The notes beneath the pieces are model-generated. The model saw only the letters and a list, made by a program, of their open reading frames with translations. It was not told the DNA's origin and made no database searches. Positions 5,483 through 63,907 of a stretch of 64,000 nucleotides of DNA are shown in pieces. A program made the position numbers and the translations under genes. How positions within the stretch are numbered: the first letter of the stretch is position 1; each line of letters begins with the position of its first letter. Source of the stretch: Lutjanus erythropterus (taxonomy: Eukaryota > Chordata > Actinopteri > Lutjaniformes > Lutjanidae); assembly GCA_020091685.1 (NCBI GenBank), contig CM034607.1, positions 35,026,768 to 35,090,767 on the forward strand. The letters are read 5' to 3'.

Positions 5483-5512
5483 AAGTGAAAGTGAAAGCAT
5501 GAAAGTGAAACT
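5483..5512 (+). promoter_or_regulatory. tandem ISRE / IRF-binding elements
   Basis: Two copies of GAAAGTGAAA (5487-5496 and 5501-5510) lie 14 bases apart. The second continues as GAAAGTGAAACT, an exact match to the ISRE consensus GAAANNGAAACT bound by ISGF3 and IRF factors. The pair sits about 200 bases before the start codon of the ART-like gene, in the right place and orientation for interferon-inducible transcription. That the gene is interferon-induced is an inference. Confidence 0.8.
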
Positions 5513-5709
5513 GGGGCAAGTTGTTTGTGCCGAAGCAGCTGACAGAGACTGACTTCTGCCTGCATCTACCTCTCCTTTTTCTAACTTTTATCCAAGAAAA
5601 GACAACTGCAGAGTCAGAAAAGGACCAAGAAACAAAGAAAAGGACTGTTTTTCTTTGTACGGAAAGACAAACTGTCTTCTTTTGCTGCCTTCCTTGTCCT
5701 CTGAGCACC

Positions 5710-7359
5710 ATGCCGGACACTCAGCTGTGTCTGGAGGCCCTGTCGGCTCTCTGCGGCTGTAACGTCGAGTCGACCAGCGGAGCCTCCCAGCTCACCCCGC
5801 AGGACTTTGTCAACATCGTGAACCTCAGGGAGTTTTACAAGCAGGAAGGCTTCAAAGAGATCGAGTACCCCAGTTTAGGGACTCTGTCCCTGCAGGACAT
5901 GGATGACCTGGACATGTACAGCGCCCCCTCGGCGCTGCCTGAAGGCCCGTCCACCGCCGGGGTGCAGGAGAGCCTCAGAGCCACAGTGAAGATCAACCCT
6001 CAGGACTTCTTCCACCCTCAGTACAACTATGACTTCACCACCATAAAGGTCAGTTCACCTGGTTATGACTCAGCACTTTACTTCACTTTAACTCTCTTAG
6101 TAATTACCTGTTGGATGTAATTTCTTTATGTTTGGGCAAAATTTCAAATGTGATTCTAATGATCTATTAGAATCACATTTGAAATTTTGGAGTGAATGAA
6201 AAAAGAATAAATAATGAATAAGTGACTGAGTGAATAAGTGAAAACCATATGAATACAGATAATTATGTTGAAGTGAGTTAGTGCATAGATGAGTTGGTGA
6301 ATGAATGACCAGAACCGACCCGATGCACAAGCAAACTAAGTGCCTGTTTTAGGGCCCCTGTGGCCACCAGAGGGCCTCGAGACCTGGACAAGGTACTGGG
6401 TAAAGGAATGAGAAACTGTTTTTAATGTCTATGCAAAAAAATGGATAGAGGTCATTTTGCAACATCCAGTTAGTGACAGAATCTAGGCAACAAAAAAAAT
6501 TAGAAAAGTATCACGGTCATCAGAGGAGGTGGTAGGATGAAGGAGTTGATTTATGTCGTTGGATTATGCTTGTTATTGTTGACCAGACCTTAAAAGAATA
6601 AGTTATAAGACTAAGAATAGGCAGAGGACTGAGTATTTTAATGCCAGTTTTTGGGTAATTTTTGATATTTGAGGTTTGGGTCACATAAAAAAAAAAGTAT
6701 CACACTCTGATATCCTGCCCAGGTTGACCTTCACAGTGCAGGATGTGGGTCACTGATCAGGATTGATGCAGTATATATTGTGATTAGCATGTAGCATGTT
6801 AGCATTTTCTCTAAGTGGCTCCTGCTCTAACCCTGTTAACTCCTCTGTCCTCCAGGATGGCAACACAAAGTTCACGCGTGGTAACGAGCAGTACATTCGT
6901 CCCTGCGGGTGGGACCGGGCTGCCCTGCGGGTGGTGCAGAAATACGATGGCGGCGACCACTGGCTCGGGACGGGCAGGGACGCCTGGCCTGTCTCCTACA
7001 ACGGACACAACATGGACGGCTCCATCATCCTGACCCACGGCGGGAGCCCCAGCGATGATCCACAGTTTCTGGACGCCGCCGCCGCCTCTCTGGTCACCGA
7101 GGAGACGAGAGGCAGGGGGGTGTACTCCACGCCAGACATCAAGCTGGCAGAGAAGTACTGCAAGAGGTTCAAGTCCAAAGTGGACGGTAAGATGTACAAA
7201 GTGGTTCTTCAGAACCGCATCAACCCAGCAAAGAGGGTGAAGTGTCAGAGGGAGGACATCTGGTTGGTCTACATCCCTCAGGGCTACAACGACGTCCAGA
7301 CGAGAGCCCTCGTTCAAGAGTCCATCCGCCCGTACGGGCTGCTGCTGATGAAGGTGTGA
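5710..7359 (+). CDS. PARP/ADP-ribosyltransferase-like protein, probably interferon-inducible (2 exons, 280 aa)
   Basis: Exon 1 (5710-6048) encodes residues 1-113 and ends AAG|GTCAGT. Exon 2 (6856-7359) follows tcctccag, in phase 0, and ends TGA. The ATG at 5710 has an A at -3; the upstream in-frame ATG at 5521 lies just 3' of the ISRE and reads through apparent 5' UTR. The C-terminal half has WPVSYNG (157-163) and GRGVYSTPD (199-207), then a strand-like YKVVLQNRINP. This matches the usual order in ADP-ribosyltransferase-fold proteins: a Y-[HN]-G nucleotide-pocket strand, then G-x-GVY. It is related in pattern to fish Gig2-type and other PARP-like stress proteins, but it is not a clear Gig2 and I cannot name a family. 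The first 113 residues show no domain I know. Catalytic activity is not assured, because the canonical H-Y-E triad is not evident. Confidence 0.82.
6137..6189. repeat. perfect 24-bp palindrome (hairpin) in the intron of the ART-like gene
   Basis: The arms 6137-6160 and 6166-6189 are exact reverse complements, separated by the five-base loop gatct. This intronic position has no coding role. A recent foldback or MITE remnant, or a cruciform-prone site, is possible. Confidence 0.9.
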
Positions 7360-10918: not shown

Positions 10919-13900
10919 TCACAAAGACAGAAGTCGAGGACACAGACACACACCTGAGCACAGGTAGAGTCCGACGATGATGACGACACACAGGGCGAGG
11001 AAAGCTGGAAGGACACAGATCCCCAGACTCCAACATGGCTGCCTGAGTGGCTCCCGGTCAGCTCCTTCAAACACAAAATACAGGAATGGATCGATTGATT
11101 TTCAGACTTCTGGTCCTTGAGAACTCAATATTTTGGAAATATAAATGTTTCCACTTGTATAAATCCCAAACACCCCCAGAGCTGTGTCTTTTCAGTACTC
11201 ATTTTCATTTTCCTGTGAACCACAGCAATGTTGAAAATTTGCTTTTGAGAGACGTCTGTCAGGTTTGAAACCAAATGAAAGTTTTTGCATGATGCTAAAG
11301 GCTCTTTCATGCACCTGCAACCTTCAACCTTAATGTGAAACATTTAGAAATAAAAAAAGCAATGCAATAAAAGTTATGACTGCTTTGCTGTTTGCACAGA
11401 TGACTTATACGGACGGTGTGGACAGGTTGAATAAATGATCCTCTTACCATCAACCACGAGACGAATCCCTCTGTTAACACAAACAGCTGTTGCACGCCTC
11501 CCTGTGCAGAAATACAGCCCTGCGTCCTCCTCCTCCACCTGCAGGATCTCCAGACGCACAGTACCGTCCTCCACAGAACCCGCGGTACGGATCCGACTGT
11601 CTGCAGAGTGAAACTCAGCAGTATCTTCCTCTCCCGCAAATGTGCTGGAGGTAACCGTCAGCAGGGGCAGCAGCTTGTCTGAGCGCAGCAGGTACCAGGT
11701 GATGTCAGAGCTGGACGTCAGGTTACAGGACAGAGAGACGTTCTGTCCGGTCTGGACCACCAGGGCTGAGCGGAGAACAGGTGAAGTTGCAGACAGGTGA
11801 GCTCCTGCAACACCTGAGGAGGGTCAGAGAGCAGACAGGTCAGAGTGAAGTTTATCCAGAGGCTGGTTTCACTCATCAGGACATTCGATTTTTATAATAG
11901 GCAGTATATACAAGACATGAGATATGGCCAAAAGTATGTGGACACCCCTTTCCATATACTTTAGCTTTATTTTTCTGGTATTCTATATTCTTTTTGATAT
12001 TCTCTGCTGATGACATATTTCAGTCGATATCAAATAAGTATTGAGGTTTAATACACAGCCACAGTTTCTCGCAGCTCCACCCATTGTGAGAAACACCAGA
12101 GAGTCAGCAGCAGTCAACAGGGAGCCATGCTCACAAGTTTTGAATGTTATTATCTCAAAACCAAAGCTGATAATCAACCCGTTACCATGACAAAATAAAA
12201 GGGTGTTTCCTCTTGTTACTATCAGGATGTACAGATGGTGTCTTGATAACTGTAGCAGCAGATTTAAACTCAAAATGTCAGATCTAGAGTTGATCAACAC
12301 ATCTGACGGTACTTCAGTCTGACTTATTTCTGTACAGACTTCATGTTAACATTCAAACACCAACCAGTGAGGCTGGTTTCTTCTGCAGTAAACCAGCAAA
12401 CAAAATTAATTCTTTTGGTTGGAGCCTCTGTACTCTACAGTGTCTATTTCCTGCTCTTTAAAAATGTTCTCGGAAGGAGGAATTTGTGTTTTTCACGAGT
12501 CTAAAAACAAACTTTTGGTTTTTTACATGTTGAGAGAGACTTGATCATCACACCACTGTGCAAAACCACCGACCACAGGTCCATGAGGCGACTCATTACC
12601 ACGACGCAAACTGTCCAAATAGTACTTTTAAATAGTTCTGAATACTTCCTACACCACCACCACCACTATATTTGTCATTATAAAGTTTTATAAAGCTGAA
12701 GTGATCAGATAAAATAGAAGTTGCTGCCTTTTGCCAACATAAAGGCAGAATACAGTAACTTCCAAACAAGGTCAAAGGTCCAATCAGAGGTTGGGATTAA
12801 TATGTAGAAACAATAACCTGATATAACGATATAAAATTACCACATATCTAATTATCTGCCTGCAACTATTTTCAGTTAAGTGTGTGGATGAAAACAAACA
12901 CGTAAATGTGCAGTACTGAACCACTTCAGGCCCCCCGTGAGATGACAGTGGCCCCAAGACAGTTAGAGTTTGAGGCCCCTGATTTACAGGTGAAAGGCTA
13001 TGACTCGTGGTGTGAAACCAATCAGATTCTACAGTGGGCGGGACATGAGTTAGACCACAGAATGACAGAAAGAGGCACTGCATCAGAGCAAAAGTAGCAT
13101 GTATAGGGTCCGAGCACCTTATTATTTCACACAACAAATCACATTTTTGAGGGCTTAAACATACTCAGACACCCAACAAATTTAACATGTCAGGGTGTAA
13201 AAATATAGTAGAGATACAGTTTTCTACAATAATGGTGGCCCCTTGCAGCAAGTTTCATTGATATGCATGAAAATGTATCACGTCTAGATGCACAAAAAAG
13301 TCTTTTGGACCGATCGCCTAAACCCAACAGGAAGTCAGCCATTTTGAACTAACACATTTACTTCAGAGTCACTGTGCGGCATCTAGACCAAAGTGTCGTC
13401 AAAAGTTATTCAAAGTTTTAGCTGTCGTCGAAGGCTGTTGCCGTGGCGTCAAATTTCGATGTCTCACCATAACACATGAAATTGCCATAACTTTGGTGTA
13501 AATGATCCGATCTGCATCAGACTTCACATTTGAGAGCAGTCCCACCCTGAACACGTCTACATGGTGATATTCAGTTACAGACTGCCACAGCGTCACAGCG
13601 CCACCCACTGGCAACAAGAAGTAAGACTTCTCTAACAGTCTTCATTTGATTTACGTGAAATTTTCTCAGCGTGGTCTTCACTTGATATACTGGAACATCA
13701 CACACTATTAGTGGGTGTTCTTCAGCGCCACCTAGTAGAGGCAGGAAGTGACATCAAATTCCTTCCTACAGTGTTGAAAATGTGTGAAAATTCAGAGCCT
13801 TGTCAACCAGATGGCGTTTGGCGATGCTTGCAGATTCCAATAAAGATTCCAATGATTAAAAGAAAAGGCTAAATATGGATTCCAATAATTGGTTAACACC

Positions 13901-15350: not shown

Positions 15351-18300
15351 ATGAAAACTGTCCGTAACAGACACTGGTAAGAAATATTATCACTGCACTT
15401 TATTTTGAAGCGAACGGCCAAAAGTATTGTTTTATTATTATTATTATTTGTTTTTTCCCATTTTCTGTCTGTCTGTGCAGAATAATCAGAGAAAGTCTTT
15501 TTTAATTATTAAATATGACAGTAAATAAACTGTCAGGCTGCAGGACTGAAGATTTCTGCAGAATAAAGAAACAACAGCAGAAGAAGACGAAGAAGAAGAA
15601 GTGTGTTTTTGTTTAGATTCACTTGTGCAGGATTGTGTCTGTGGCAGCAGCACTGACTGCACACATGATGAACACAAACTGACGCGCCGCTGCAGTTTCG
15701 TTACTCAGGAAATCATCTGGTGTCCAGAATCGAAACTCCGCCGCTCTGAACGGGGCGGGGCCAAATAACCTTCAGATTACATTAATAAATGATTTAATAT
15801 TTAATAAAAATTAAACCTCATGACCTTTTATTAAGTTTACACAGTGAATATGAAGAATAAACATCTGAAACAGGATTTCTGAATCCTGATTGGCTGTAGG
15901 TTTAAAGGGCCAACGTGTAAAAAAATATTCTAATACTCAAATAAATCTAAACTTAATATGTAAAAAAAAAAGAAAAAAGTATTCAACAATAACAAAAAAA
16001 GAAAAAAGTATTCAACAATAACATAAAAAAATAAAATATGAACATATAGCATATCAGAAATCTGCTGCGACCACACCCTGTATTAGAAACTAAAACCTTC
16101 TGGACAAATACTGAACAAAATTACTTGATATAATATCATATAGTTTATATTTGTGAAAAACTCCTTATGTATTTTAAAATGGAACTCTATCATCACTGAA
16201 ACTATTATATTATTATTTAGTATTATATTAGAGCAGCAACGATTAATTGATTAACTGATTATTAAATGAATCTACATCTATTTTGATAATGGAGTCAGAA
16301 TCTGTTTGAATATTTTTTTCAGCCTCTTAAATGTGATTTTTTTTTTTTTTTTTACAAACAACTATTAATCGATTAATCAAGAAAAGAATCAACAGATTAA
16401 TTAACTATGAAATGATCATTAGTTGTATTAATAGTAATATAATATAATATCCTTTAAATTCTGTTTTCTTTATTCTTATTTATAGGCCTATATTAAAAAA
16501 AAGTGTCTAAAAATGATATCAGTGCTGTGAAACAAATTAATCATTATAAATATGTATTTAAAAAAACAGAATTTAATTAATCTATTTAAATTATCCCAAG
16601 CAGGTTTTGTCTGCATTATGTTCTGTGAAATAAGTTTTCACATCGGTGAAATGTGATTCCTGTGTGACGGATTGTGGGCAGAAGAAGCAGCACTGGAGTC
16701 TTTAAAGATTTATTGTTGCTTCTTTTTCTTCTCATGATTCTCGTGTGTGTTTCAGGTTTTTCATATTTCTACACTGTCTCCTGGTTGGCAGGTTAGTTGG
16801 TGAGTATCGACCTGACATTAACACAAACACACAGTTTATAGTTTATGTTTGTCTCTTTGTTTGTTTCATCCTTTCTCATTAGAACAAATAAAGGGATATT
16901 TTTGTACAATCAGTTTAAATTGTAATCACATTACTTTCATAATAAATCACTGCCTGACTTGAATGAGTTTGTCAAGTTTGTAGAAAAAGAAATAAAATAT
17001 GTCTGATATTTGCTGAGCCAGATTGTACAGGAAGTTAACTATATTAATTGCCAAATAAGAACTGAATGATTAAACATATATTGATTGAAAATGAATCAAT
17101 TAATTAATCATCTATAAATGGCATTAACTGTGCTTCATTTGACATTGTTTTATCTGGTGGAGCCATTTATTGGATAAGGAAACTTCAAATTAAACTTAAA
17201 ATAAGAAAAAAGGAGAAAAAAAAAACAAGAAAAAAATGAAAATGAGGGAAAATGTGTGCTTTTTATTTATTAATGATTAATCAGTTATTAGAATTTTCAA
17301 CTATTGGCTACAGAAAATGCAGAAGATTTGCAAACTTAATGGGAAACAAAGTCTACTTAGAGACAGGTGACACATTTTGAAACATGAAACTCGTCTGTTC
17401 TGTAACCAAACATGATTTCTGTTGATTAAAGCACAGAAATGTGATTTATCTCGATGAAGAGGAGAATTAATCATTTTGTATATAAATATATCATTTGCCT
17501 CGGCTGTAAAGTGCTGGAACAGCTTGAAAATACTTGAAAACTTTGGACAAATTTTAATTAACATGTGTAAATCTGATTTTGAGGACCTCAGAGTGGACAA
17601 AGTCACTGTGAATTCTGATGGGGGATGAACCAGGGTCCTCTCTGTTAGTGAGGAGATCTTCCTCTGTTTCCTCCTTCATGGTCTCTCTCTCCTTCCAGAC
17701 TCCTCTTCCCTGTCCTCCACCACCTTCTCCGAGTCTATCATCTCCATGGTGGGGAACCAGGCGGTCCTTCCCTGCAGCTGGAAGTCCCGTCTGGGGGACA
17801 TGGCCCCGTCCAACTGCCACATCCAGTGGAGGAACCCGGCCGACACGGTGTTCGAGCTGCGGGGGGAGCAGAGATGGCAGGCGGAGAAGTTCGAGGGCCG
17901 GGTGGAGGTTCCCGAGGAGAGGCTGGGGTCCGGGGACTGTTCCCTGATCATCAGGGACGTTCAGATCGGAGACACGGGGAGATATGAGAGCTTCATGGTG
18001 GTGGACGGAGTGAGGTCCAGGAAGACCAAAGTCTTCATCCAGAGTGTCAAGCTGTCGGTGTTCGGTCAGTCGGAGTTTGGATGACTTTCATGTTTTCTCA
18101 GATTTTCCATTTCTCTTCTATTCTATTATTATTCTGTCTTTTCTCATCTGTTTTTTCTTTCTTTTCTTTAATCTGTCTGAAGTCCATTCCTCTCCTTTCA
18201 TCATCTTTTCCTGTATTTTTACTGATGTAATTTTTCAGTCATTTGCCCTCATGTCTGTTTCTTCCTTTGTCTGTCTTTCCAATCTGTCTATGCTTGAATT

Positions 18301-28181: not shown

Positions 28182-31100
28182 TACATGTAATTTAATTCAA
28201 TCCTGCATGATAAATCTGATCAGACAAACTGTGTTTTCATACAAATGTGTCACAAATTTTGACCAAATTTTGAGTAAATCTATGAAAGAAAAAGTGAATG
28301 AATGCTCGAGGTGTAAATCTAAAGTTTCATCATGATACGATATGATGATATGATATTGAGACAACGATATTTCCTGATATCAGAAAATCTGCCATGATAT
28401 GATTTTGATTCAGTTTAATTCAGGTGCCTTTGATTCTTTGTCCATTCAACACATTCAGTTACATTTATGTCAAGTCACAAAAAGCAACTTAACTTAAAGA
28501 TGATAATATAAACTGATATTTTCACTTTGCATCGATCATGTTGGATCATTGAACATCGTATTGATCAGTCCAGATCCATGTATTGTTATACCCCTAATGA
28601 ACGTTTGCAGTCGGTTCATCAAGATAAACAGCATGTGGTGCTTATTGTCCAGTCAGAAAACCATTATACCATCGTTAACAGAACATCTCTGCTCACCACA
28701 CTCAATAATATTTAAGTTTTTTGACACATTTTGCCTTTAACAATTATTGCACCTCTTGTGATTTGAAAACTGCAGAAATCCATATTGCGATTTTGATAAA
28801 ACTTGAATTGATTGTGCAGCTCTAACTCTGAGGTCGTCAATATTAGATTTGCACATTAACTAAAAATCACAATTTATACAAAAGTCTGGAAACTAAACTA
28901 TAAAAAAAATATACTTTTTTTAAGGTCTGTTATTTCTTTATAACAGACCGTTGCTAAGAAGAGCAGGCCGTTGCTATGGACACATTTCTGATCATAGACA
29001 CTGGAGGAGCAATAAGGTGATTTTTAAATCCATAAAATCATTTTAAAATGAATATTTTCTGTTAAATTATTGAATCTTTTTGGTAAGTAACTGTGTAATA
29101 AGCAGGATAATGCACAGTGAGCACGTTGTTGTTGTGAAATCAGGATGATTCAAGTCCTGCGTCGTCCTGTCGGGATTTATTTCACAATAACGACATTATC
29201 CCTTAATTGTAGGTTTGGAAAGAAACAGTTATTCTTTTGGTGTATATGTGTGTGTTTGCAGGCTGGGGGGCTCAGCTTTTCATAGATACAAGAAGAGGGA
29301 GGGGCTCCAAGGAAAAAAAAAAAAAGGTCAGGAATCACTGCTTCAGCCATGGAACCCAGGAGGAACCAGCTGATCAGTCCTGTGAGTTAATGTTCACTGT
29401 GTCAGAAGTCTTTCCATTTCCCATTAAGAGGCAAAAAATCTCCTCAAAACTTCTTCATGAAACTGACTGAATTCAGTTTTTTTTTCCATCAACTTTGCCT
29501 CAGGCAAAAATCCAAACTGAGCATTAAGATGTGTTGAAGGAAACACTGGTTGATTTTCATGTTCTCGTCTTCATAAACAGAGTCTGAAGTTTGTAATTTC
29601 ACATTTGAATGAGACTTTAAAAAAAACAAAAAAAAAACAATGATGTGGTGAATGTGAGAGGAAACTGAGCGAGAGATATGAGAACACATGAAAGGAAGCA
29701 GGAAGCTGAAGTGGTGAAGCGGTGAAGTCAGGTAGAAATTCTGCAGACTCAGACTGAAGAGAAACAAAACTGAGAGCACGGCGAAGGATTAGTCCGTAAA
29801 ACAAAACTCAAGTGTGAAGTGAAAGAAGGAATCCTGTTCACACTGGAGTTTATGAGTCACCACACCCAGAGGCAGAGTAAACACATGTTGCAATCTCTGA
29901 TTTTCATTTCTAGGATTTGGCTTTGAGCCAAATATTCCATTTCTTTCTTTATAAATCTTAAAACATGTTTTAATGATACATATATATATGTAATTAGATT
30001 TCAAAAGTCAAACTCTCTCCCATTAAAGCTTATAACAGGTCAACCTCCTAATGATTACATTTTTAATTAAATGTAGATGTCAACTCTGCCAGATTTTACA
30101 ACTGACAGAGCTGCTGTCTACACTGAAAACAATTCTTATTTAGTTTTGATTTAGATGGACTACACATCTGATAGCGATATTATTTAATTAATTTATCTAA
30201 AAATAGAAAGTTTTCCAGTGATTGAGCTGTTTTCCAGCCAGTTATAAACCAGGAAGTGAGACAGGGGTCCTTAGGGTATAGCTGACCCTTTTTCTGCCTG
30301 ATTAAATCATGTTCACATCACGTTTACATCCATGTTATCAGTAGTTATTGTTAGTTTCAGATTTTGAAGACTTTAGATGCATTTTTAAATTGTTTGAAGT
30401 TGTGAATTCTTGACTGAGAAAAAGTTGTTTTAAGGCACAGAGCAAGTTTACACATTAAAAAAATGAAAGCAAACCAAAACATTTCATATATTACATACGT
30501 TCCACATATATATAAACCCTTAAATAATGCATTTTCATCAAAAAATGGACTTGGAGTGTTTGTATTAAACATTTTTAAAGTTTTTCTCTTTTATTGGTGG
30601 CACATAAGTTGTGTCGGTTTTCCAGAATCTGCAGTTATATCACACACTGTAAATAAAATGTACTTTTAAAAAGAAAATTAAAGTCACAGAGAGAAAACAA
30701 ACCAAAAGAACTCGACTCCTCTCACCTTCCTCGTTCTTTAGTCGGTCAAGCTGCCCTTTCTCCATCAGAGCCTCGGCCTCCTTCACGAAGGCGATCATCC
30801 CTCCGAACGGCGGAGACAGAATCTCCTCGATGAACTCCTGGACGAGGAAACAGAGTGACAGTTAAATAATGTGAAAACATCAACGACTAACAAGATTTAA
30901 GACTTAAATCCTCGTTTTAATTTTTGTTTATTTTCAAGAAAATACAAGTTAAACTAAAACTTGAATAGAGGCGCTGCAGCCGCGGACAGTATGAGAAAAT
31001 GATGCATTTTTTAAAACCTGTTCTAAAAGAGCCACCAAATAAAAGTATGAACCTGAAAATGAGCACAATGTGGCCTCTTTGATACTTTTAATAAACCTGC

Positions 31101-48657: not shown

Positions 48658-51600
48658 TCATGCCTCCCTCTGTGGAGGAGGAGGAGGAGGAGGAGGAGGA
48701 GGTGGAGGAGGAGACTTCTGCTGTGGTGGCTGCTGCTGCTGCTGCTGTTGTTGTTGTTGTTGTTGTTGTTGGTCCTTGGTGGGAGCGTAGTAAAGCTCCA
48801 GAGGCTTCCTGACCTTCCAGTACTTCTCGTTCACCAGCTCCAGAGTCAGAGAGCCGTTCAGCGTCTGAGAGGGAGGAGAGAAAGAGGTGGGTGGAGGAAC
48901 AGATGGTGTAGAAGCCCTGATAAGCTGCAGTGTTCATTAAAGGTCAGTTCAACCAATTCACAAAAAAACTTTCAGACCAAGTTTCAGCTCATCAGCTGGG
49001 AAGATTTGGGGGTTTTTTTTGTACCAGTTTTCAAGCAGTCTGGTTTGTTGCAAATGACGGACAGATGTATTTATCATACAGGATACTTGGTTATATTAAC
49101 ATTCTGGGTTTTCATACCAAAATACTTAATCCTGTGCACAACAACTAAATATACTAATATAAAATAATCAACAATGAAAATAATCATTAGTTGCTGCAGC
49201 ATGTATGTATTTCTGAAGGAATGCGTGTTGAAAGAAAAGAATATCTTGTTCAACAGTATTTCTCTCTTAGCAAGTTATCAGGTGACATTTATGATCAGTG
49301 ACATGACAAAGCCAGTTTTCACCACATTCTCTGTGGCGTCTGATGAAAACAAAGAGTTTGTGTCTGATGCACGGCTAAATAATGTACATAAAGCTGTATG
49401 AAAATGTGTCAGTAATGGAAACAATAGAGTCAGTTTTCAAAAACATTGCACTTTTTTGCAGTACATGAACACTGAAGTGGCCTGAATCAATCTGAGTTTG
49501 AGACCAGTGTTTAACAGCTTGAATCAAATAAATGTTAGTAAAGTTCAAACCTTAAGATCAGACTCTCTTTTTCTGTAAATGTTTAGTTGTCTTGTCTGTT
49601 TCTGTCAGTGATCCATTAAAGGAACAGTCTGACATGTTGGGAAATAAACATTCTCTCTCTCCTGCTGAGAGTAAGAAGAGGAGATCGAGATCACTCTGAT
49701 ATTTGACTGTTAAATATGAAGTTTTTACCAAAATATCAAACCACTGTTTATATGAACCTAATATGAAAGAGCCAATCACATCATAAAGTGCATCAGACCC
49801 ATTTTTAAGTTCCTGTGTTGCAGCGTTGGTGTGATTACTCACAGAGAACTGTCCTCCTCTCGTCATGATGTAGATGGTGTATTGTTTCTCACTGATGTTG
49901 CTCAGACTCGACCCTTCTCCACCTCCTGCTGTTCCATCTGTCTCTCCTCCTCCTCCTCCTCCTGCTGCTGCTGCTGTGGGTGCTTCTCCCTCTTCTTTTC
50001 CTCTGTCCTCTGTCTCTCTGTTGGTCTGTCCGTCCTCCAGAGCGATGCGCAGAGCGAGGTATTTAGACAGATGGTCCACTGTGGCGTTCGCTGTCGTCTT
50101 CACGTATCTGCAAAGAAAGAACATTTTGATAAGAAACGGACAATCCACCCCTAATTTTAGTCTAGATTACGCACTCTGGATACAAAAAAGGTAACTGTAT
50201 TTCATTACAGTTACAGATACATTTAATGAAAATGGAAATTATTATATAGAAGAAATATAAATCTGATTTAGACCAAATTCTAGTCAATGAAGACTAATTT
50301 TTCTAACGATACAGGAAAGTTTCAGGTCTCAAACAGTCCAGTCTCACCTGGTCTGGTTGTAGTCCTGGGCGTGGACCAGCTGTGGGTGTGGTCTGAACAC
50401 CAGCTCGATCTCAGAGCTCGGCCCCTCTTTGTGGCGTCTCAGTGGAGGGGTGGGGCTGCCGCTGTCCGCTTCGCCCCCGGAGCCGTCGTCAGACGCCCGC
50501 GGCCGCTTGCGGCTCGGCCCGGCCTCCGAGGGTGTCCGACCCGCTGGGTGAGGGGTGTGTGAGGGGGCAGAGTCATGGGACAGGTGTGAACGGGCGTCGC
50601 CGTTATCTTCCCCACCGCTGAAGGTGGTGTTGTCGCTCTCCTGAGTCGGCTTCTTCACCCGGTGGTTCCTGCAGGGTGGAGGTAAACACGTGACCAGAAG
50701 TCCGTCTTTAAGGGAAAATTCTGGGGACGCTCAGACAAGAACTGTATCACCAAACTAACATATAGCTCTTACTTTGTTGGAGTCGGTGACATCACTGTGA
50801 GATCACTGTGACATCACTGTGACATCACTGAAGCAGGAGAACTCAGCTTTCAATTTAATGCTTCAACTGACTACATTTACCATCAACACTGACTGGACAT
50901 CTTTGTGAAAAGTGCTGAATTTTCCCTTTAAAGGTAAAGGAGTCCTTGGAATAGACAGTAGACAAAAATCTCCCCGTCGTCTCCCCCTTTCCTCCCCCAC
51001 CTCTCGGACCTGTAGCGGGCCTGCTGCCGGAGTCCCTCCTCGATGCTGGAGCTCAGCGCCTCCTTGTTGTGCAGCCTGTTGAGTCGCTCCAGGACGCGGC
51101 GCTGGTGGGCCTCGTACTCGTCCCGGCTCGGGTAGATCTTCGAGATCAGCGCGTCGAAGTTTGCGTCTCGGCGCAGCGAGCGCCTGGAGACGAGCTTCTT
51201 CCTGCAGGTCGGACACTCTTTGTTCCTGGAGAGGGAGGAGATCTGGTATAGTTAAATCCAGCAAAGTACCAGAAGATAATAAGCCGCCATTGCTGCGGTG
51301 GCGTTTCCTACAGTGTGAGCGCGAATGAATTCTAGCCATCATCAGAAGTTTACATTTTTCTACTTTTACCTTTAGTTCGGCTGCTCCAACCGTTAACTAC
51401 TTACTATTACAGTAAAAATGTGCCTTTAAATCCACTAAATTACAATAAAACTAATAAATTAGTTTGACTTTGCTTATTAAAATACCAGAGGGGCAGGCAG
51501 ATAATCGGATGATCTTAACGCAAGATTTGCACCACATTGAGGCTGTAAAACCATAAAAGATTAATCAAATAAATAAATAAAATAATGATTGTTTGTTGCT

Positions 51601-54259: not shown

Positions 54260-57153
54260 TAGCCATCTTCCTTCTTCTTCTCCCCGGAACAAGTCGCTTC
54301 TCCTCGGCTGTCATCGGAACCTTCTCAGCGGCAGTGACCCCCAGCGGCCGGTCAGTGTATTACACCGGGGGGACAGGCTAGATCAGGAGTCTGCGACCTT
54401 TATGATCAAAAGAGACATTTTTGGATCGAAAAACATCTGTCTGGAGCAACTATTGAATTCTCTATTTAACATGAAGACTTGTTTTTTAGATTTTTTTGTT
54501 TTTTGTTTGATTTTTTTGTTTGTTAGACTCAAGAAGACGAGCCACTATCAAAATTTAGAGGAAAAGGCACAGAGCCACATTTTAGTTGATGAAATATCAA
54601 AAGTTTTTCTTGTTATTTGATGTACAGGCTACATATTTTTACAGTTGTACTGCGATATGTACTGCTATAGGTTATTGAGTTTTGAGCCCAACACAAACTC
54701 AAATGTTTTGAAATAAACTGTAAAAAGTTTTAGTTGAATATATTAAAAATTTAACCATCATTCACTTTCACTTGAATTATTTTACTTCATATTTTTTAAA
54801 ATGCAATTTTTGTGGTTTCTAAAAAACTCAACTCTCAAACTTTTAAGTTGATCTAAATAAGAAAAGTAAATTATCTGAACAAAATATTAGTAGTTGGTAA
54901 AACCTAAGAATTTGAGTTGGGCTCAAACCTATAAAAAAAAATTATAGTAGTATGTTACCTTGAATTTTTGAGTTGTCGCATGAAATGAAAATTATTATTA
55001 TTTTTTTAATTATTATTCCCATTTTCTTTTTCCCAGGAAACAGAAAATAGTTTGGACGTGAAGTCTCAGAAATTGCTCGTCTTGATTATTTTGATTAATT
55101 ATGTTATTATTATATTATGTTATTATTATATTATATTATTATGTTGTAATTAATTCTGTTATTAATTCTGCTTTTATTACATATTAATACCCTTGTATGT
55201 TGGGTGAATAGCCTCACATGGGACACTGAGTATGGTGGGTGCACCGCTGTAATAAATAGAATAAAATATGTATTTAGGTTATCACATGGGACTTTTTTCT
55301 TCATAGATTACTTTTACTTTGCTTCCTTTGAGTACAATTTCCTGATTATACTTACATACTTTTCTTAAGTAACATTTTCAAGGCAGGACTTGATCTGAAT
55401 ATTTCCTCCACCACTGTATCACAATAGTTTCAGTTCCAAGGAATGATGTCTATTTATATAACATTATATGTTGTACAAACAGTTTCGGGGAGTGTTGTGT
55501 GTCATCATGAGGGTGTCCCTGGTTAGTTATTATCATGGAATGATGGTTGGAATGTAATACTTACTTTCTAATGAAGTTTGACCTGTGGGCGTCGGCAACA
55601 CGCCTCACTTTGCACCACCCTGACAGAGTTCATCTAATCACCTCAGAGGAACGTTGTCAGACGTTTTCTTTCATCAGCATCATTTCATTTTCACTCGTAA
55701 AACAATACAATAATGTAGGAAATGAAAAATAAATCGTTAACACCCGTTCTTGAGAAATGGCACAAATCATGGCAGACGGAAAAAATGATTAATACTAACA
55801 CTCTTTAAGGATTTATATAAATGAAATATATGTAGTTTATAAAATGTTGGCACTTTAAAGTTGTGTTCCTGATTTCTGTTAATTCTAACAGAGTTTTATA
55901 AAGACATGATTTAATCAGGCATAAAAAGCATTAGCTATACTCTAAGGACCCCTGATTCAGTTCCTGGTTTTCAAAAAGGCAGGAATGCTGCTCAAGCACT
56001 GCTACACTTTATATTTTTAAACAATTAATCAGATGTGTCTCAATCATAACATGTCGACTCTGTAGTCAAAAATCTAAATCAAAGCTAAATAAGAATTATG
56101 GTTTTAAAATGTGTATTTTGTTTAACATTAAGAGACTCTGAGACACTTTAAAAAATAACATGTCTGCTCACCATTCTGCTGTGACATGAAAAAATACTGA
56201 ACCAGTTTGTCATTTCTCATTTAGACTATTTTCTGTTTACTATTTTAGATTATTTAGATACTTTTTAGAGTACTTTCCCAAACGTGGGGAATATGTCCAG
56301 GTTGAAAAATACTAAAGTTTCCATTTAGTTTCCTCTTAAGCAATAAGTTAGGAAAAATAATCTTATTCCAAACTGCTTGCTATCACAAGAATAACCTGGG
56401 TCATCTTGTTTCAGCTCTTCATTGAAGGTACACAATGTTTATATGAGTGAAATATGAAATACTAATATTCAAGGACTCATTAAGCTGTTAAATGAAGCAG
56501 AATGAGGCAGTTCAATGCAGTTATTATTAATTTATTGATTAGACAGTTAGCAAGAATTAAGTTAAGATGCATCTCTCACAACTTTGCAATCACAAACATT
56601 CACAATTTTAAATATTAATAATTAGAGTAAACAATATGATAATAATAATAATAAGATAATTACATAATTTCACACACACACAGTTTTCTTTTATATTGAG
56701 GACTTAATTTAAACGATGAACAGAACTGTGATATATTGCACATAAACACACATTCACAAAGTGTAAGAACAATAACTTGACTTGAAATTAATCTAGAGAT
56801 CATTTTTTGTCAGTTGTGTGATGTACAATGTATCACACACATGCACACAATAAATACGGCAATAAATAGTATAATTTACACCTATTTAAAAGATTAAATA
56901 TCAGCCATGTTTGCCACTGTTACTGATTAGTGACTATTACACTGATGATTACTGCACCCAGAGTTAGAGGACCAGCTGACTCTTCCTTCTCTGACTTTTA
57001 AAAGAAAACTATCAAATTTTCATAATTTAGACATACATGTGATACACTGGAAGTAAACTAATACAATAAAGTAATAAACATGTCTTGTACTGTACACTTA
57101 AGTTCATGAGTTCATCAATCCTGACATGATGATGTAGCTACATGTGTTGCTTT
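54260..57153. other. intergenic, no gene recognised
   Basis: AT-rich DNA between the RING1 promoter and the stop of the alanine-rich gene. The right part should hold the 3' UTR of that gene. Simple ATT-rich tracts occur at 55095-55180 and 56635-56660. No coding or RNA gene was seen. Confidence 0.4.
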
Positions 57154-60100
57154 TTACAGAAGCACTGCAGCTACGACGGCCACTGTGACGGAAATGAGGC
57201 TGATTTTGTTGTTGACTGCATCTGCTGTTGCTGTTGTTGCTGCCGCTTGTCCGGATCCAGCTCCGGCACCTGCTCCAGATCCAGCTCCAGATGCTGTAGT
57301 TGCTGCTGCTGCCGTTGGCGTTGCTGCTGCTGCTCCTGCTGCTGCATTGTTGGAGGACGTTTTTGACACCGCCGCTTCTGCTGCTGATGCTGCTACGCCG
57401 GCGGCTGCCGCTGCCGCCTGTGATGTTGATGCCAGTGCTGCTGCAAGGCCTGCTGCGTTCTGTGCTGATGTTGCTGACAATGCCTCTTTTGCGGTTTCTG
57501 CAGCTGCTTTTGCAGCCATTCCTGTTGCTTGTGCCATCTCTGCCAACATTCGTGCATCTGCAATGGATTCACGGTCTGCTGCTGTGGACCCTGCACTGTC
57601 TGACAGGATTCCCTGTAATTCTTCCGCTGCTTCAGCCGATTCTGTGGCCACTGTTTTGGCGGCTTCAACAGCTTCTGACACAATTTCTGCTGTTGCTTTT
57701 TTAGATGCTGCCATTCTCACCGCTTTTGCTGCTGTGTTTGCTGCATTGCCTGTTTTAAATGCTGCTGCAGCTATTTGTGTGTTTCGTAGCGCTAAGCTGG
57801 CTGGTGATGCTGCTGCTGCTTGCTTTGCTGCTTGCCATGCTGCATCTGATGCTTCAGCTGCTTTTTCTGCTGCCTCTGCTGCCATTTCCACTGTTCCCAC
57901 TCCATCTGCAAGTAACTTGGCAGCCACCGCTGCTGCTTTTGAAGCTTTTGCTGCTTCTTCTGCTGCTTTGGATGCCTCTGGCCCAGCAGCTGCTGCTGCT
58001 GTTGAGGCCGCTGCCGCTGCCGCCGCTGCAGCCGCTGTCGACCCAACCACTGCTGATTGTTGTGCTTTAGTCGTGTTTGGTGCTGATGCTTCTGCTGGAT
58101 TTGCAGCAGTTGGTCTTGGTGTTACATTTGCAGCTGTGTTTGGCAGTGAACCTTCTGCTGCGTTTGCTGCTGCTTCTGCAGCTCTTGCTGCAGCCTTTGC
58201 TGCTGATGTCATCAGTTTTGGGTTCGTTGCTGCTGCAGCCTCTGGAACTGTTTCTGCTGTAATGGCCGTCGCCTCTGCCATCTGTGCCACTGCTTCTGCT
58301 ACTCCTATTGCTGATTTTGTTGCTTCTGTCATTTCTTCTTCTTTTTCTGCAGTGGCTGCTGACAATGTCTTTAATGCACCTTCTGCTGCCTCTGCCAGTG
58401 TTTTCGCAGCTTCTGCAGTTGCTGTGATTGCTTCTGGAGTTGCTGTTTTGGAAGCTGCCTTCGTTGCTGCTGTAGCTGCTTTTCTTGCTGCCACTGCTGC
58501 TTCTGATGATGCCTGTGCTATCTGTGCTGCTTCTCGTGCTGTCGATGGTGGTGCTTCTACTGCTGCTTGAATTGCTGCAAGTGCTACTGCTTCTGCTGCT
58601 TCTGCAGCACTTACGGCTGCTTTTGCTGCCAGTGTTGGTGTTGCCTTTCCTTCTGCTAACAATGTGGCTGCTCGAGCTGCTGCTTGTGCTTCTTTTACTG
58701 CAGCTTCTACTTCTTTGGATGTCGTTCCAGCGGCTGCTGCTGTTGTGGCTGCTACTGCGGTTGCTGCTGCTGCTGTGGATGTCATTACTGCTGTGGTTTC
58801 TTCTCCTGTGGCTGCTAGTGCTGTTGCTGTTGCTTCAGCAGTTGGTGGCACTGTGGATGAACTGATACCTGCATTTGGGAGCGCAGCTTTTGCTCCTGTT
58901 GCTGCTGCTGCTGTGGCCTTTGCTGCTGCTTCCATTGTTCTTGTCACATTCTGTGTTGCTGCAGCTGCAGTTGCTGCTGATGCTGTCAATGCCGTTGCCT
59001 CTGCCATTTTAGCCACTGACTGAGCTGCTGACATTGATATACGTGCCGCTGCTGCTGTTGGCTCAGTAGTGGATGATATTTTTGCTTCAAATATCTTTGC
59101 TGCCTCTCTTGATTTTTCAGCCACTTTTTTTATAGCTTTGGCAGCTTCTGTGATCGCTGCTGGTTTTCCTGAGGCAGCCATTGCTGCTGCTGCTGCTGCT
59201 TCTTTGGCGGCATCTGCTGCTAATAATGCTGCAATTGGTAGTTGTGCAACTGCATCTGTTTTCGATGCTGGTGCTGTTTTTGCTTCTTGCTCTGCTGCTT
59301 CTGCTGCTTCCTTGGCGAGTTGGGCAGCTTTTGTTGCTGCTTCTGCTGCAGATGTTGCTGGTTGTTTTCCTGTTGCTACTAATGTGATGACCTTGGCTGC
59401 TTCTTCTGCAGCGTTCATTGCTTTTTCTGCGGCAGGAGATGATGTTGCTCCAGCTGCTGTTGAGGTGGCTGCGGCTGCTGCAGCTGCTGTAGAAGCTGCT
59501 GCTACAGCTGCAGAAGCAGATGATGCTGTCATTTTGACGACCGCTGTTGGTGCCAGTGTTGCAGGGACTGTTATGGCTGCTGTTGTTGTTGTTGCTGGCA
59601 TTGCTGCTGCTGCAGCCAGTGCTGCTGCTTTTTTTACTGCACTTATTGCCTCTTTCACTTTTTCTTTGGAAAGTGCTGTCTTTTCAGCTGCTGTCCCTCC
59701 TGTTGCTGCAGCTGCCTCTGCTGCTGTTTCTGCTGCTGTCATGGCTTTGTTTGCAGTTTCAGCTGCCAGAGCTGCTGCTTTCTCAGCTTCATCTATTGCT
59801 AATTGAAGTGCGGCTGGTGGTGTTGGTCCCATGGCTGCTGCTTTAAGTATTGCTTTTAGTTCTTCTGCTGCTTCCTCTGCTTCCTTCGCAGCTGTTTTTG
59901 CAGCTCTTATTGCAGCTTCTGCAGTTTCTGGTGTTATTTCTGATGCTTGAATGTTTGCTGCTAATCTTGCTGCTGTTGCCGCTGATTTTGCTGCTCCTGC
60001 AGCTTTTATTGATGCTGCCAGGGTTTTCTCTGCTAATGCTGCTAATGCTTCAGGTGCTGCTGTGGCTGCTTGGATTGCTGCTGTTGCAGCTGCTGTTGCA

Positions 60101-60242
60101 GCATCAGCTGCATCTGTTGCTGCTTGTGCTGCTTCTTTTGGTGATGCTTTCCCATCTGTTAATGCTGCAGCAGCATCAGCTGCTGCTTGAGCAGCTAGTG
60201 AAGCATTTTTTGCAGTTTCTGATGTTTGTCCTACAGTGGCTC

Positions 60243-60275
<33 letters not shown>

Positions 60276-62251
60276 TGGCTGCAGCTGTTGCTGCTGTGGC
60301 TGAGGCTGTTGCTGCTGCTGCTGCTGATTGTAGTGTTGATGATGCATTTGTTGTGATTGACTGATTGCCCATCATTGTTGCTGCTGCTGCTGTGGTTGTT
60401 GCTGGAGCTGTAGGTTCTGGAGGAATAGCTGCTGCTACAGCAGCTGCAGCTGTTATTGCATTTCCAGCAGCTGTTGCTGCCATTGCTGCTGTTGTTGCTT
60501 CTTCAGCTGATTCAGCTGCTTGTGTTGTATTTTCAGCTCTTGCAGCTTCTGCTGCCATTTTTGCTTTAGTTGCTGTTTCCGCTGCCATTTCTGCTGCTCT
60601 TTCTGCTGCTGCAATTGATAATTGCATCAGTTCAGTTTCTTCAGGTGTGAGATCTTTGGCTGCTTTTAATGCTGCTTGTATTGCTGCTAGAGCTCTTTTT
60701 GCAGCATCTGCTGCCTCTGCTGCCTCTCTTTCAGCTGCTTCTGCATCTTCTGGTGTTACTGCAGATGCAGCCTTTGCTGCTGCCTCTGCTGCTTTAATTG
60801 CTGCATCTGATGCATTTGATGAGGCTTCTGCGATCTTCTCTGCCACTTCTGCTGTTGATCCTGGTGCAGTTTCAGCTGCTTGTTTTGCTGCATTTGTTGC
60901 AGCTTTGGCCGCTTCTGCTGCTTTCTTTGCTAGTTCTGCTGCCACGTTTGGTGATAGCGATCCATTCATTACTGCTGCTGAAGCTAATGCTGCTTGATGT
61001 GCAGCAGCAGCAGCAGCTTCTGCAGCTGCAGCTGCTGCTTCAGCGGCAGGTCCAGAAGTGACTGCGGCTGTTGTTGCTGCTGTTGTTGCTGCTGCTGAAG
61101 CTATCGCTGCTGCAGCTGCTGTTGCGGCTGCTGTTGTCATTGGGGCAGATGTATTTACTGTTGGAGCCATTATCATTGTTGTTGCAGTAGGTTCTTCAGA
61201 TGTTGCCGCAGAAATTGCTGCTGCTACAGCAGCTGCAGCTGTTGCTGCATTTCCAGCAGCTGTTGCTGTCATTGCTGCTGTTGTTGCTTCTTCAGCTGAT
61301 TCAGCTGCTTGTGTTGTATTTTCAGCTCTTGCAGCTTCTGCTGCCATTTTTGCTTTAGTTGCTGTTTCCGCTGCCATTTCTGCTGCTCTTTCTGCTGCTG
61401 CAATTGATAATTGCATCAGTTCAGTTTCTTCAGGTGTGAGATCTTTGGCTGCTTTTAATGCTGCTTGTATTGCGGCTAGAGCTCTTTGTGCAGCATCTGC
61501 TGCCTCTGCTGCTTCTGCTGCAGCTGCCTCTGCATCTTCTGGTGTTACTGCAGATGCAGCCTTTGCTGCTGCCTCTGCTGCTTTAATTGCTGCATCTGAT
61601 GCATTTGATGAGGCCTCTGTGATCTTCTCTGCCACTTCTGCTGTTGATCCTGGTGCAGTTTCAGCTGCTTGTTTTGCTGCATTTGTTGCAGCTTTGGCCG
61701 CCTCTGCTGCTTTCTTTGCTAGTTCTGCTGCCATGTTTGGTGATAGCGATCCATTCATTACTGCTGCTGAAGCTAATGCTGCTTGATGTGCAGCAGCAGC
61801 AGCAGCTTCTGCAGCTGCAGCTGCTGCTTCAGCGGCAGGTCCAGACGTGGCCGCGGCTGTTGTTGCGGCTGTTGTTGCTGCTGCTGAGGCTATCGCTGCT
61901 GCAGCTGCTGTCGCTGCTGCTGTCATGCTTGCTGCAGTTGCTGCTGCTGGTGGTCCTGTTGTTGTTGCTTCAGATGTTGTCGGGGCGGGTGCAGGTATTG
62001 TCGGGGCCATTATTGCTCTTCGTGGACACCTCAGTTTGAGGCTTCCTTCAGCAGGCTGGCTGTTGGATGCTATTTTAATTTAAGAGTTTGGTCAGAAATA
62101 AATCATTTATTGTCATTTAGTCATGATTTCCTTTTTAAATATGAAATTAGTACTCACCCATAAGCATAAGGATAACGATAAAAGTCTTGATGATCATTGT
62201 GATCGGCTTCTGTTCTCCTCCGCTTTCTCTCCCAAAACTATGCCTGATCAT
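57154..62251 (-). CDS. giant alanine-rich repeat protein, secreted and probably GPI-anchored (about 1,650 aa)
   Basis: Two coding exons on the minus strand: 62251-62158 and 62069-57154, joined in phase across a GTGAGT donor and an AAAATAG acceptor. The second ATG (62197) starts MIIKTFIVILMLMGASN, a clean signal peptide; the first ATG (62251) would add 18 residues. The 4.9-kb last exon is one open frame of roughly 60 percent alanine. It holds about six repeats of some 260 residues, each a Thr/Ala/Pro-rich linker followed by amphipathic Ala-Glu-Lys helices broken by short Pro/Gly/Ser turns. Examples are MNGSLSPN, APGST and VTPEDAE. N-glycosylation motifs recur, and the only cysteine is near residue 28 of the mature part. 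The C-terminus, NNKISLISVTVAVVAAVLL, is a typical GPI-attachment signal. The function is unknown. A helical, glycosylated surface or secreted coat is an inference; a type I antifreeze resemblance is compositional only. Confidence 0.8.
60424..61926 (-). repeat. recent in-frame tandem duplication (789-bp period)
   Basis: The segments near 60424-61137 and 61213-61926 are nearly identical in DNA at a constant offset of 789 bases (263 codons). They correspond to the first two protein repeats of the alanine-rich gene. The other four repeats are much more diverged. Confidence 0.85.
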
Positions 62252-63458
62252 CTCCTGTAAGAAAATAAAAAATAGTAGAAAAGAGATTTTTAAAATCTGT
62301 ATATCTGATAACAACAACAGTTGAATGTGGACACTTGCACATTTACAGTGATGTTTATCAATCTGCATAGTCCACAAATAAATAAATAAATTTTTAAATA
62401 TAATGTAATTATTCAATCTGTAAATGCAGCCACACCCAACACAAAAAGGTCAATAGCCAAGTAGAGTGACCTTTCCGAAATTTATTGGTGCTATTGATTC
62501 ATATTATCAGCTCAAAACATTGTACTTTACTCTAAGAATCCCAATGGAAACAATTTTCGGTACAAACCACAGGGAGGAAAACAAACAGTAACAGATTCTA
62601 ATATTTTTCAGGTCCTTTAGGCCTGATAAATATTCAACCAAATGCTGAAGGAACAGTTAGAGAGAGTGGAGTTGACACGCCTGTTAGCTCTGATTTTGCA
62701 TTACAACTTTGGATGGTGTCAAAGATTTTTGTAAAACCTGATAAAAATGCTCAGAGGAAAACAAAATTCCAAACAGACTGAAACTCCATTAACAAAAACA
62801 TTCATTTTAATTGACTGAACAGAGGAGTTGCTGTTCTGTTGCTGCCTCAATTGCTTAGTTTGTTTATGTTATTGTGTGACTTTGATGAATCTGAACTAAC
62901 CCTTTAATACACAATAACACAAAGAAACTAACCAGTGGAGGCAGCAGAAAACCAGCAACCTTCATGTTCTGTGAGTTAAAATGATTAAAAGCAATATTTG
63001 ACTTATAAAACAGCACTTTCCCATTGGAAAAATCTGTCTGACAGCGAGGTAAAGTGATGAAAATATTCTAAATAAGTATATTTAAACTGACATTGATATT
63101 TTTAGGTGTCTTAGGTGTCTAAAACCCAAACTATCCCTTTAAACACAACAACTATAAACATTTTTTAAAAGTAAAAATAAAATTATATAATAAAAATAAA
63201 AATAAAATAATATTTTTTCTCCACAATAATATGGACCACATGTTAAGTCACAAAATTAAAGTAGTAAATGTGTCCACTAAATTAAAGGGAAATTTGAAAT
63301 TTTATCTCTTTCCTCTAGTTTTATCACCTACTTAGACAATTATACATGTATATAAAAATGAAATAAAATTAAAATATAATTGATAAATCATAAAAACGTA
63401 TTTAATCAGAGAAGAATTTAAAGTGAAAGTGATTTTAAATGGTCAGTGAAGTACTCAC

Positions 63459-63564
63459 TTGACTGATGAAGTGAGGTGATGCTGTTGTTTCCTCGCAGTA
63501 TCTCTCTTCTTCTTGAGTTTGTCTTGCGCTCTGTGGTCTCTCGGTCTCCTCTGCCTCCTATATA
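63459..63564 (-). promoter_or_regulatory. TATA box and 5' UTR exon of the alanine-rich gene
   Basis: On the minus strand TATATA (63564-63559) in gtgtatatag lies about 100 bases before a GTGAGT donor (exon end 63459). The next exon starts at 62254 after tcttacag, three bases before the first ATG. This suggests a TATA-driven non-coding first exon of about 70 bases. The transcription start is inferred. Confidence 0.55.
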
Positions 63565-63907
63565 CACAAACACAATCAACGTCAAACAGATGACTAATTA
63601 ATAGTAATGATCAGTTATAGATTTCCACTCCCATATTAAAGTGTTTCCTTTTTATTTTCAGATGATGATGATGCTGATTGATGTGTGGGATGTGAAACTT
63701 GTTGAGTGACATTTCATGACATTGTGACACTGCAACTAGTTATTAAGAACTGTATTGTTTATTTAATATTGATAATACCTTTATGGGCTAATACATGTGT
63801 TCAAGTTTGGAACTAGCCCTTTTCTTTAGAACCAGGCCATTGTGACGCCCTGCTGGGCGTTTTTTCAGTTGATGTAATATATTTTGTAGAAAACTGAGGG
63901 AAGAAAC

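Follow-up and report, generated by a model that had tools for sequence, protein, structure and literature searches.

The stretch of DNA analyzed here (64,000 nt of the Lutjanus erythropterus genome, C17:35026768-35090767, referred to below as the window; positions without a prefix are counted from its first base) comes from an assembly of 938 Mb in 444 contigs and carries, on its minus strand, a giant predicted gene for an Ala-rich helical repeat protein. All features of this gene given below are on that strand. The upstream element AAATGTCACTCAACAAGTTT, 20 bases at 63695..63714, is an exact match to the consensus AAATGTCACTCARCMAGTTT and is followed by a TATA box (GTATATAGG, 63557..63565, with TATATA at 63564-63559, read from the sequence) and a non-coding exon 1 (63459..63535), whose predicted 5' end is based on the TATA box and whose donor, GTGAGT, follows 63459. 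Intron 1 (62254..63458) runs from GTGAGT to TTCTTACAG. Exon 2, the signal-peptide exon (62158..62253), starts translation at ATG 62251 or at the in-frame ATG 62197 and has a GTGAGT donor after 62158. The 88-base phase-1 intron 2 (62070..62157, GTGAGT...AAAATAG) leads into the giant coding exon 3 (57154..62069), which ends with the stop codon at 57156-57154; the nearest possible poly(A) signal, AATAAA, is at 56531..56536. A segment of intron 1 (62802-62984) matches its own reverse complement (72%) and is a palindromic, perhaps miniature inverted-repeat transposable element (MITE)-like, repeat.

Splicing of exon 2, read from ATG 62251, to the acceptor before 62069 produces a single predicted protein of 1,669 residues that contains 41.5% Ala, 11.1% Thr, and 8.3% Glu, no Tyr, a single Cys, a single Trp, and 13 NxS/T sites. 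The earlier note, made from the bare sequence, had described a 4.9-kb single-exon frame of about 1,640 residues, a separate signal-peptide exon, coherent splicing, and a TATA promoter with a 5' exon, and the gene structure outlined above bears this description out. The range given there, 57154..62251, covers the coding part of the gene and leaves exon 1 outside.

The stop-to-stop frame (62079-57154) is open over 1,641 codons. At the observed codon-position composition, with positions taken as independent, 23.2 stops would be expected in this frame and none is present; the remaining five frames of the same stretch contain 8 to 91 stops each. In Markov simulations of orders 1 to 3 (200 each, all six frames), the longest open frame did not exceed 466 codons. 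The encoded sequence is strongly periodic. Charged residues, counted together with the amides, recur with a period of 3.54 residues (power of 631; none of 200 shuffles exceeds 322), and amino acid identity has peaks at lags of 7, 4, and 3 residues (z scores of 6.7, 6.5, and 4.9, respectively). The third positions of the Ala codons show no signal at lag 7 (z score of 0.7; the largest among 42 lags is 2.1). Since the heptad is present in the protein but not in the synonymous third positions of the Ala codons, the helix pattern is a property of the protein and not simply that of a 21-base DNA repeat.

Compared with the composition expectation, residue usage also tracks helix propensity (rho of -0.58, p = 0.011, for 18 of the 20 residues, Cys and Trp being left out); the correlation reaches -0.77 without Ser, Asn, and Gly, an exclusion chosen after seeing the data. 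Gly and Pro are concentrated at helix ends, and [STD]PE helix caps occur 6 times, compared with 0.8 in 300 shuffles. In the 78 Ala-majority columns, a weak test for helix breakers gave 5 Gly and 2 Pro versus 8 Ser and 12 Glu. It is easy to write off giant repeat-coding exons as low complexity; here, the helix pattern looks selected, and the synonymous sites do not carry it.

The giant exon encodes six paralogous units. With boundaries that are the analyst's choice and on which the unit spacing depends, their cores comprise residues 107-318 (unit 1, 61210..61845), 370-581 (unit 2, 60421..61056), 645-855 (unit 3, 59599..60231), 907-1095 (unit 4, 58879..59445), 1147-1342 (unit 5, 58138..58725), and 1391-1592 (unit 6, 57388..57993). 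The assignment of units 2 to 6 is based on alignment to unit 1, and that of unit 1 on the alignment and a structure model. The cores, 189 to 212 residues each, align across 218 columns, of which Gly column 32 and Pro column 65 are invariant in all six units. A conserved plan of 260-residue units had been proposed in the earlier note. This plan holds for units 1 and 2, whose starts lie 263 residues apart and whose cores are 96% identical. The subsequent unit starts are spaced at 275, 262, 240, and 244 residues, with 35 to 44% identity of units 3 to 6 to unit 1, so the plan does not extend unchanged along the protein.

Structure models cover unit 1 and units 1-2. The model of unit 1, with the five paralogues as the alignment, consists of six helices (mean predicted local distance difference test [pLDDT] score of 85, the highest of five models that ranged from 69 to 85; predicted template modeling score of 0.77). 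The model of units 1-2 has twelve helices, one of them within the linker, and the last two helices of unit 2 are fused. Together with the period of 3.54, which lies beyond all 200 shuffles, the six-helix model gives the heptad amphipathic helices expected of helical bundles and coiled coils, in agreement with the original description of Ala-rich helical repeats. Charged residues make up 20.6% of the cores and 3.7% of the linkers, and the linkers are richer in Thr plus Ser (29.3%) and Pro (6.1%). The protein does not qualify as a mucin proper, which would have a large Pro/Thr/Ser repeat exon: its cores contain 14.0% Thr plus Ser and 2.6% Pro, and the linkers alone are richer in these residues.

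The two most hydrophobic stretches of the protein are the N-terminal signal (core residues 20-30) and the C-terminal tail (residues 1651-1669, 57157..57213). The tail includes the 11-mer with the highest hydrophobicity in the protein, is preceded by a Gly/Ala/Ser-rich stretch, and carries no trailing charge. By hydropathy, this combination of an N-terminal signal with an uncharged-end hydrophobic tail is that of glycosylphosphatidylinositol (GPI)-anchored proteins, as had been noticed originally. The product could instead be a soluble secreted coiled-coil structural protein, such as an egg coat, adhesive, or silk-like protein, in which the tail is not a GPI signal. Ala occupies 71% of the heptad a positions and 71% of the d positions, in a register chosen on a/d, and the Gly/Ala/Ser-rich stretch before the tail would also suit such a protein. 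However, the hydrophobic stretch that ends the chain uncharged is the strongest one in the protein, which makes the soluble alternative rather unlikely. The coiled-coil silks of bees and ants similarly have Ala-rich heptad cores, but to our knowledge they contain no GPI tail or mucin-type linkers.

The Ala-rich protein belongs to no family in the collections searched, in line with the initial impression. Neither the whole frame nor any of the six units matched a Pfam family at an E value of ≤1, the whole frame matched no NCBIfam family at an E value of ≤0.01, and as a single query it found no sequence in the PDB at an E value of ≤0.001. A profile of the units yielded 13 PDB matches at an E value of ≤1. 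The best five (top E value of 1.1e-5) are designed proteins, among them the de novo designed helical repeat proteins 6w2w, 5cwg, and 5cwc, artificial sequences whose likeness to the units may be compositional; five of the 13 are natural EsxB proteins with E values of about 0.5. This is a natural protein whose best sequence-profile matches among solved structures are designed ones. Structure comparisons with Foldseek and VIA-align returned generic helical bundles and no clear fold relative (bundles of the Talin, vinculin, and FAT types were considered). Protein searches of the same genome with unit 2 (19 candidates), unit 6 (9 candidates), and the whole frame (best 29 of 281) found this locus only. 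However, with unit 2 as the query, unit 1 was recovered and units 3 to 6 were missed, and the unit 6 search recovered only unit 6, so that equally diverged paralogues would escape these searches. A DNA search of the genome for exon 2 plus the intron next to it returned the query itself and six short matches to parts of the intron, none of them over the signal exon. Scans of viral contigs with the unit alignment and of bacterial and archaeal contigs with unit 2 matched 600 and 595 stretches, respectively, none of which was confirmed. No description of such a gene was found among the literature matches listed. In its general workings, the protein can be compared with BARP and MISP of Trypanosoma brucei, which are GPI-anchored helical-bundle surface proteins (PMC10089363), BARP being Ala-rich by name; they come from an unrelated organism, and the excerpted parts of that paper do not mention a giant tandem array.

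An Ala-rich, helical, and (as predicted) secreted protein in a fish invites comparison with the type I antifreeze proteins (AFPs), including the flounder protein Maxi, and an ice-binding role of the secreted or anchored product has to be considered. The window also contains a Gig2-like gene (5509-7356, 5.5-7.4 kb, plus strand), recognized by eye and without a Pfam match, and the AFP-like motif TxxAxAAxAA occurs 8 times, compared with 2.5 (standard deviation of 1.6) in 500 shuffles. However, type I AFPs are stated to contain over 50 molar % Ala (PMC3855684), more than the 41.5% found here. Thr pairs at a spacing of 11 are not enriched (z score of -0.2), Thr-11-Thr-11-Thr runs occur twice versus 2.9 expected, and the helix period is 3.54 rather than 3.67. 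In blastn comparisons of the flanks (55.5-57.2 and 62.1-64.0 kb) with the window (E value of ≤1e-3), no match fell in the Gig2-like region. According to PMC9122973, Gig2 was the progenitor of the flounder antifreeze genes, which sit at another locus. An antifreeze role is highly improbable because the Ala content, the Thr spacing, and the flanks all misfit, despite the one enriched short motif.

A new feature of this locus is the 20-base upstream element, which ties the Ala-rich gene to a duplicate of its first exon and to a mucin-like gene. Exact matches to AAATGTCACTCARCMAGTTT occur at 3 sites in the entire 938-Mb genome, all inside 29 kb, and each precedes a first exon: that of the Ala-rich gene, the exon 1 duplicate, and that of the mucin-like gene. 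The distances from the element to the exon 1 donor at the three sites are 236, 210, and 268 bases. The initial pairwise match of the element had an E value of 1.5e-4, and no site with up to two mismatches was found in 2 Mb of random sequence. The pattern was built from the same three sites, so the telling point is the exclusive clustering of its exact matches. The two one-mismatch sites (in L034 and L035) have no mucin-like frame in the approximately 3 kb around each.

A tandem duplicate of the Ala-rich gene's promoter, its exon 1, and a part of its intron 1 lies ∼2 kb upstream (L009, about 272-1773). Exon 1 and its duplicate are identical at 92 of 95 positions (6 gap columns not counted), and the 46 columns that follow show 37 identities in 39. 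Further out, identity falls to 71 to 73% (114 of 157 positions upstream and 444 of 626 in the intron, with 43 and 405 gap columns, respectively, left out). The best 95-base window of the duplication has 93 matches, compared with a maximum of 88 in 2,000 permutations that treat positions as independent; this best-conserved window is exon 1, and a second conservation peak spans the upstream element. The duplicate is old, with a nearly unchanged copy of exon 1 that may provide an alternative first exon.

The mucin-like gene (L011:8408-9956, C17:35119175-35120723, plus strand) lies ∼29 kb upstream of the Ala-rich gene and on the opposite strand. Its exon 1 is likely non-coding, and its signal exon, which contributes 37 coding bases, is separated from a large repeat exon by a 107-base phase-1 intron; the counterparts in the Ala-rich gene are a signal exon with 40 coding bases (from ATG 62197) and the 88-base phase-1 intron. 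The two genes are alike in the upstream element, the likely non-coding exon 1, the signal exon, the phase-1 intron, and the large repeat exon. They differ in that the visible body of the mucin-like protein is made of 7-residue Thr/Ala/Pro repeats with few charged residues. The upstream element, the exon plan, and the phase-1 signal exon constitute a common 5' module of the kind expected in a mucin-like gene cluster. With these features and its duplicated first exon, the Ala-rich gene is not isolated. A degenerate copy of the element with 2 mismatches (L011:7865-7884, the single one inspected of the 70 two-mismatch sites) lies ∼540 bases before the mucin-like gene's own element; together with a 64-base match of 82% at C17:35116309, it suggests further local duplication.

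The Ala-rich gene has an uninterrupted frame with coherent splice sites and a signal exon; its predicted product is built from six paralogous units with heptad amphipathic helices, has linkers richer in Thr, Ser, and Pro, and ends in a hydrophobic tail. As far as the sequence allows, it probably encodes, although with considerable room for doubt, a functional, lineage-restricted, secreted, and likely GPI-anchored helical repeat protein that belongs to a mucin-like cluster in the extended major histocompatibility complex (MHC) region. The chain would enter the secretory pathway and lose its N-terminal signal, a GPI anchor would replace the C-terminal tail, and N-glycans at the 13 NxS/T sites and linker O-glycans might be added. 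Each unit would fold as an Ala-packed helical bundle, ∼5 nm long as estimated from helix length. Six such bundles on glycosylated linkers could form a rod-and-hinge element of the glycocalyx that reaches tens of nanometers off the membrane or is shed into mucus, with a role as a spacer at the surface or as part of the mucus. Among proteins of cell surfaces or mucus coats, the product may be an unusual kind, and the fish MHC region gains a surface-protein candidate.

The gene would have arisen within the mucin-like cluster, retaining the upstream element and the exon plan while Ala-rich heptads took the place of Thr-rich mucin repeats in its body, either by rebuilding or by replacement. A more specific and tentative proposal, possible rather than probable, is that a mucin gene changed its structural class, from an exon of Thr-rich 7-residue repeats to an array of Ala-packed heptad bundles, and kept its element, signal exon, and surface role. 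This change would have proceeded largely through transitions of Thr ACA to Ala GCA, each a single transition, plus charged substitutions. If true, the designed helical-repeat proteins would have a natural counterpart in this protein, and vertebrates a glycocalyx molecule of a new class. With a mucin-like gene of similar start nearby, one can test within one cluster whether a folded repeat protein emerged from a disordered mucin.

Several observations weigh against this interpretation. The frequency of general [ST]xxE capping boxes is that expected by chance (22 versus 21.8), the model of units 1-2 is of low confidence (mean pLDDT of 67, with minima at the linker and the model end), and GPI attachment is judged solely from hydropathy. 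At up to two mismatches, the upstream element has 75 sites in the genome versus 127 for a reversed control, without excess, so only its exact matches are informative. Beyond the element and a few exon 1 bases, the promoters of the two genes differ, and the mucin-like gene has no TATA box at the corresponding place. The signal peptides resemble each other weakly (11 of 500 shuffles are equally good). The mucin-like repeat exon runs into Ns, and the following 30 kb (L026-L028) consist of N only. A comparison of the two bodies scores 49.1 bits, versus a mean of 38.3 and a maximum of 47.3 in 30 codon shuffles, a result that does not establish homology. The ratio of nonsynonymous to synonymous substitution rates (dN/dS) between units is 0.60 to 1.01 in all 15 pairs, so constraint on individual residues is weak, and Tandem Repeats Finder reported 39 rows in 56.0-64.0 kb, mostly within the frame, 9 of them short with a period of 21. 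The repeat rows and the dN/dS values would also suit a non-functional expanded GCA microsatellite with a fortuitously open frame. Such an origin is very doubtful, given the complete absence of stops, the heptad periodicity confined to the protein level, the helix-propensity bias of residue use, and the signal exon, splice sites, and C-terminal tail that are all in frame, and the initial verdict of a real gene stands.

The gene content of the window fits the teleost extended MHC class I region. The neighbor of the giant frame is RING1 (49561..51251, minus strand), as had been stated before; its RAWUL exon is at 49561-50166 (E value of 2e-9), and its RING-side exon (50931-51251) was recognized by eye, without a Pfam match. 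RPS18 exons lie at 40.7-43.7 kb (plus strand; match to a human query), VPS52 exons at 35.8-36.4 kb (minus strand), and two frames with V-set immunoglobulin domain matches at 11377-11823 (minus strand) and 17629-18081 (plus strand). In Atlantic salmon, Table 1 of PMC1971071 gives, in order, SLC39A7, reverse transcriptase, RING1, RPS18, VPS52, and a VHSV-induced gene, and that table has no entry resembling an Ala-rich giant gene. According to PMC2846915, the salmon IB region carries Sasa-UGA, one MHC class I gene, which is located between SLC39A and RING1. This gene, along with the linkage to the V-set frames, VPS52, RPS18, and RING1, raises the question of whether the Ala-rich product is an immune-related surface stalk or adhesion molecule. 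However, linkage by itself shows no function, and no binding domain was detected by Pfam in the whole frame or the six units, making an immune role improbable.

No scored ZIP-family match was found beside the Ala-rich gene; the scored matches on the same contig are near 27.5 and 32.0 Mb (33 matches; best 88 of 2,402 candidates scored). No Pfam families were found in 52.0-57.0 kb (six frames) and 38.0-48.0 kb (three minus frames), where reading long translations through stops gives low sensitivity. Finally, the segments 30131-30312 and 55904-56097 are copies of a common interspersed repeat with 75% identity, the second of which lies downstream of the Ala-rich gene.

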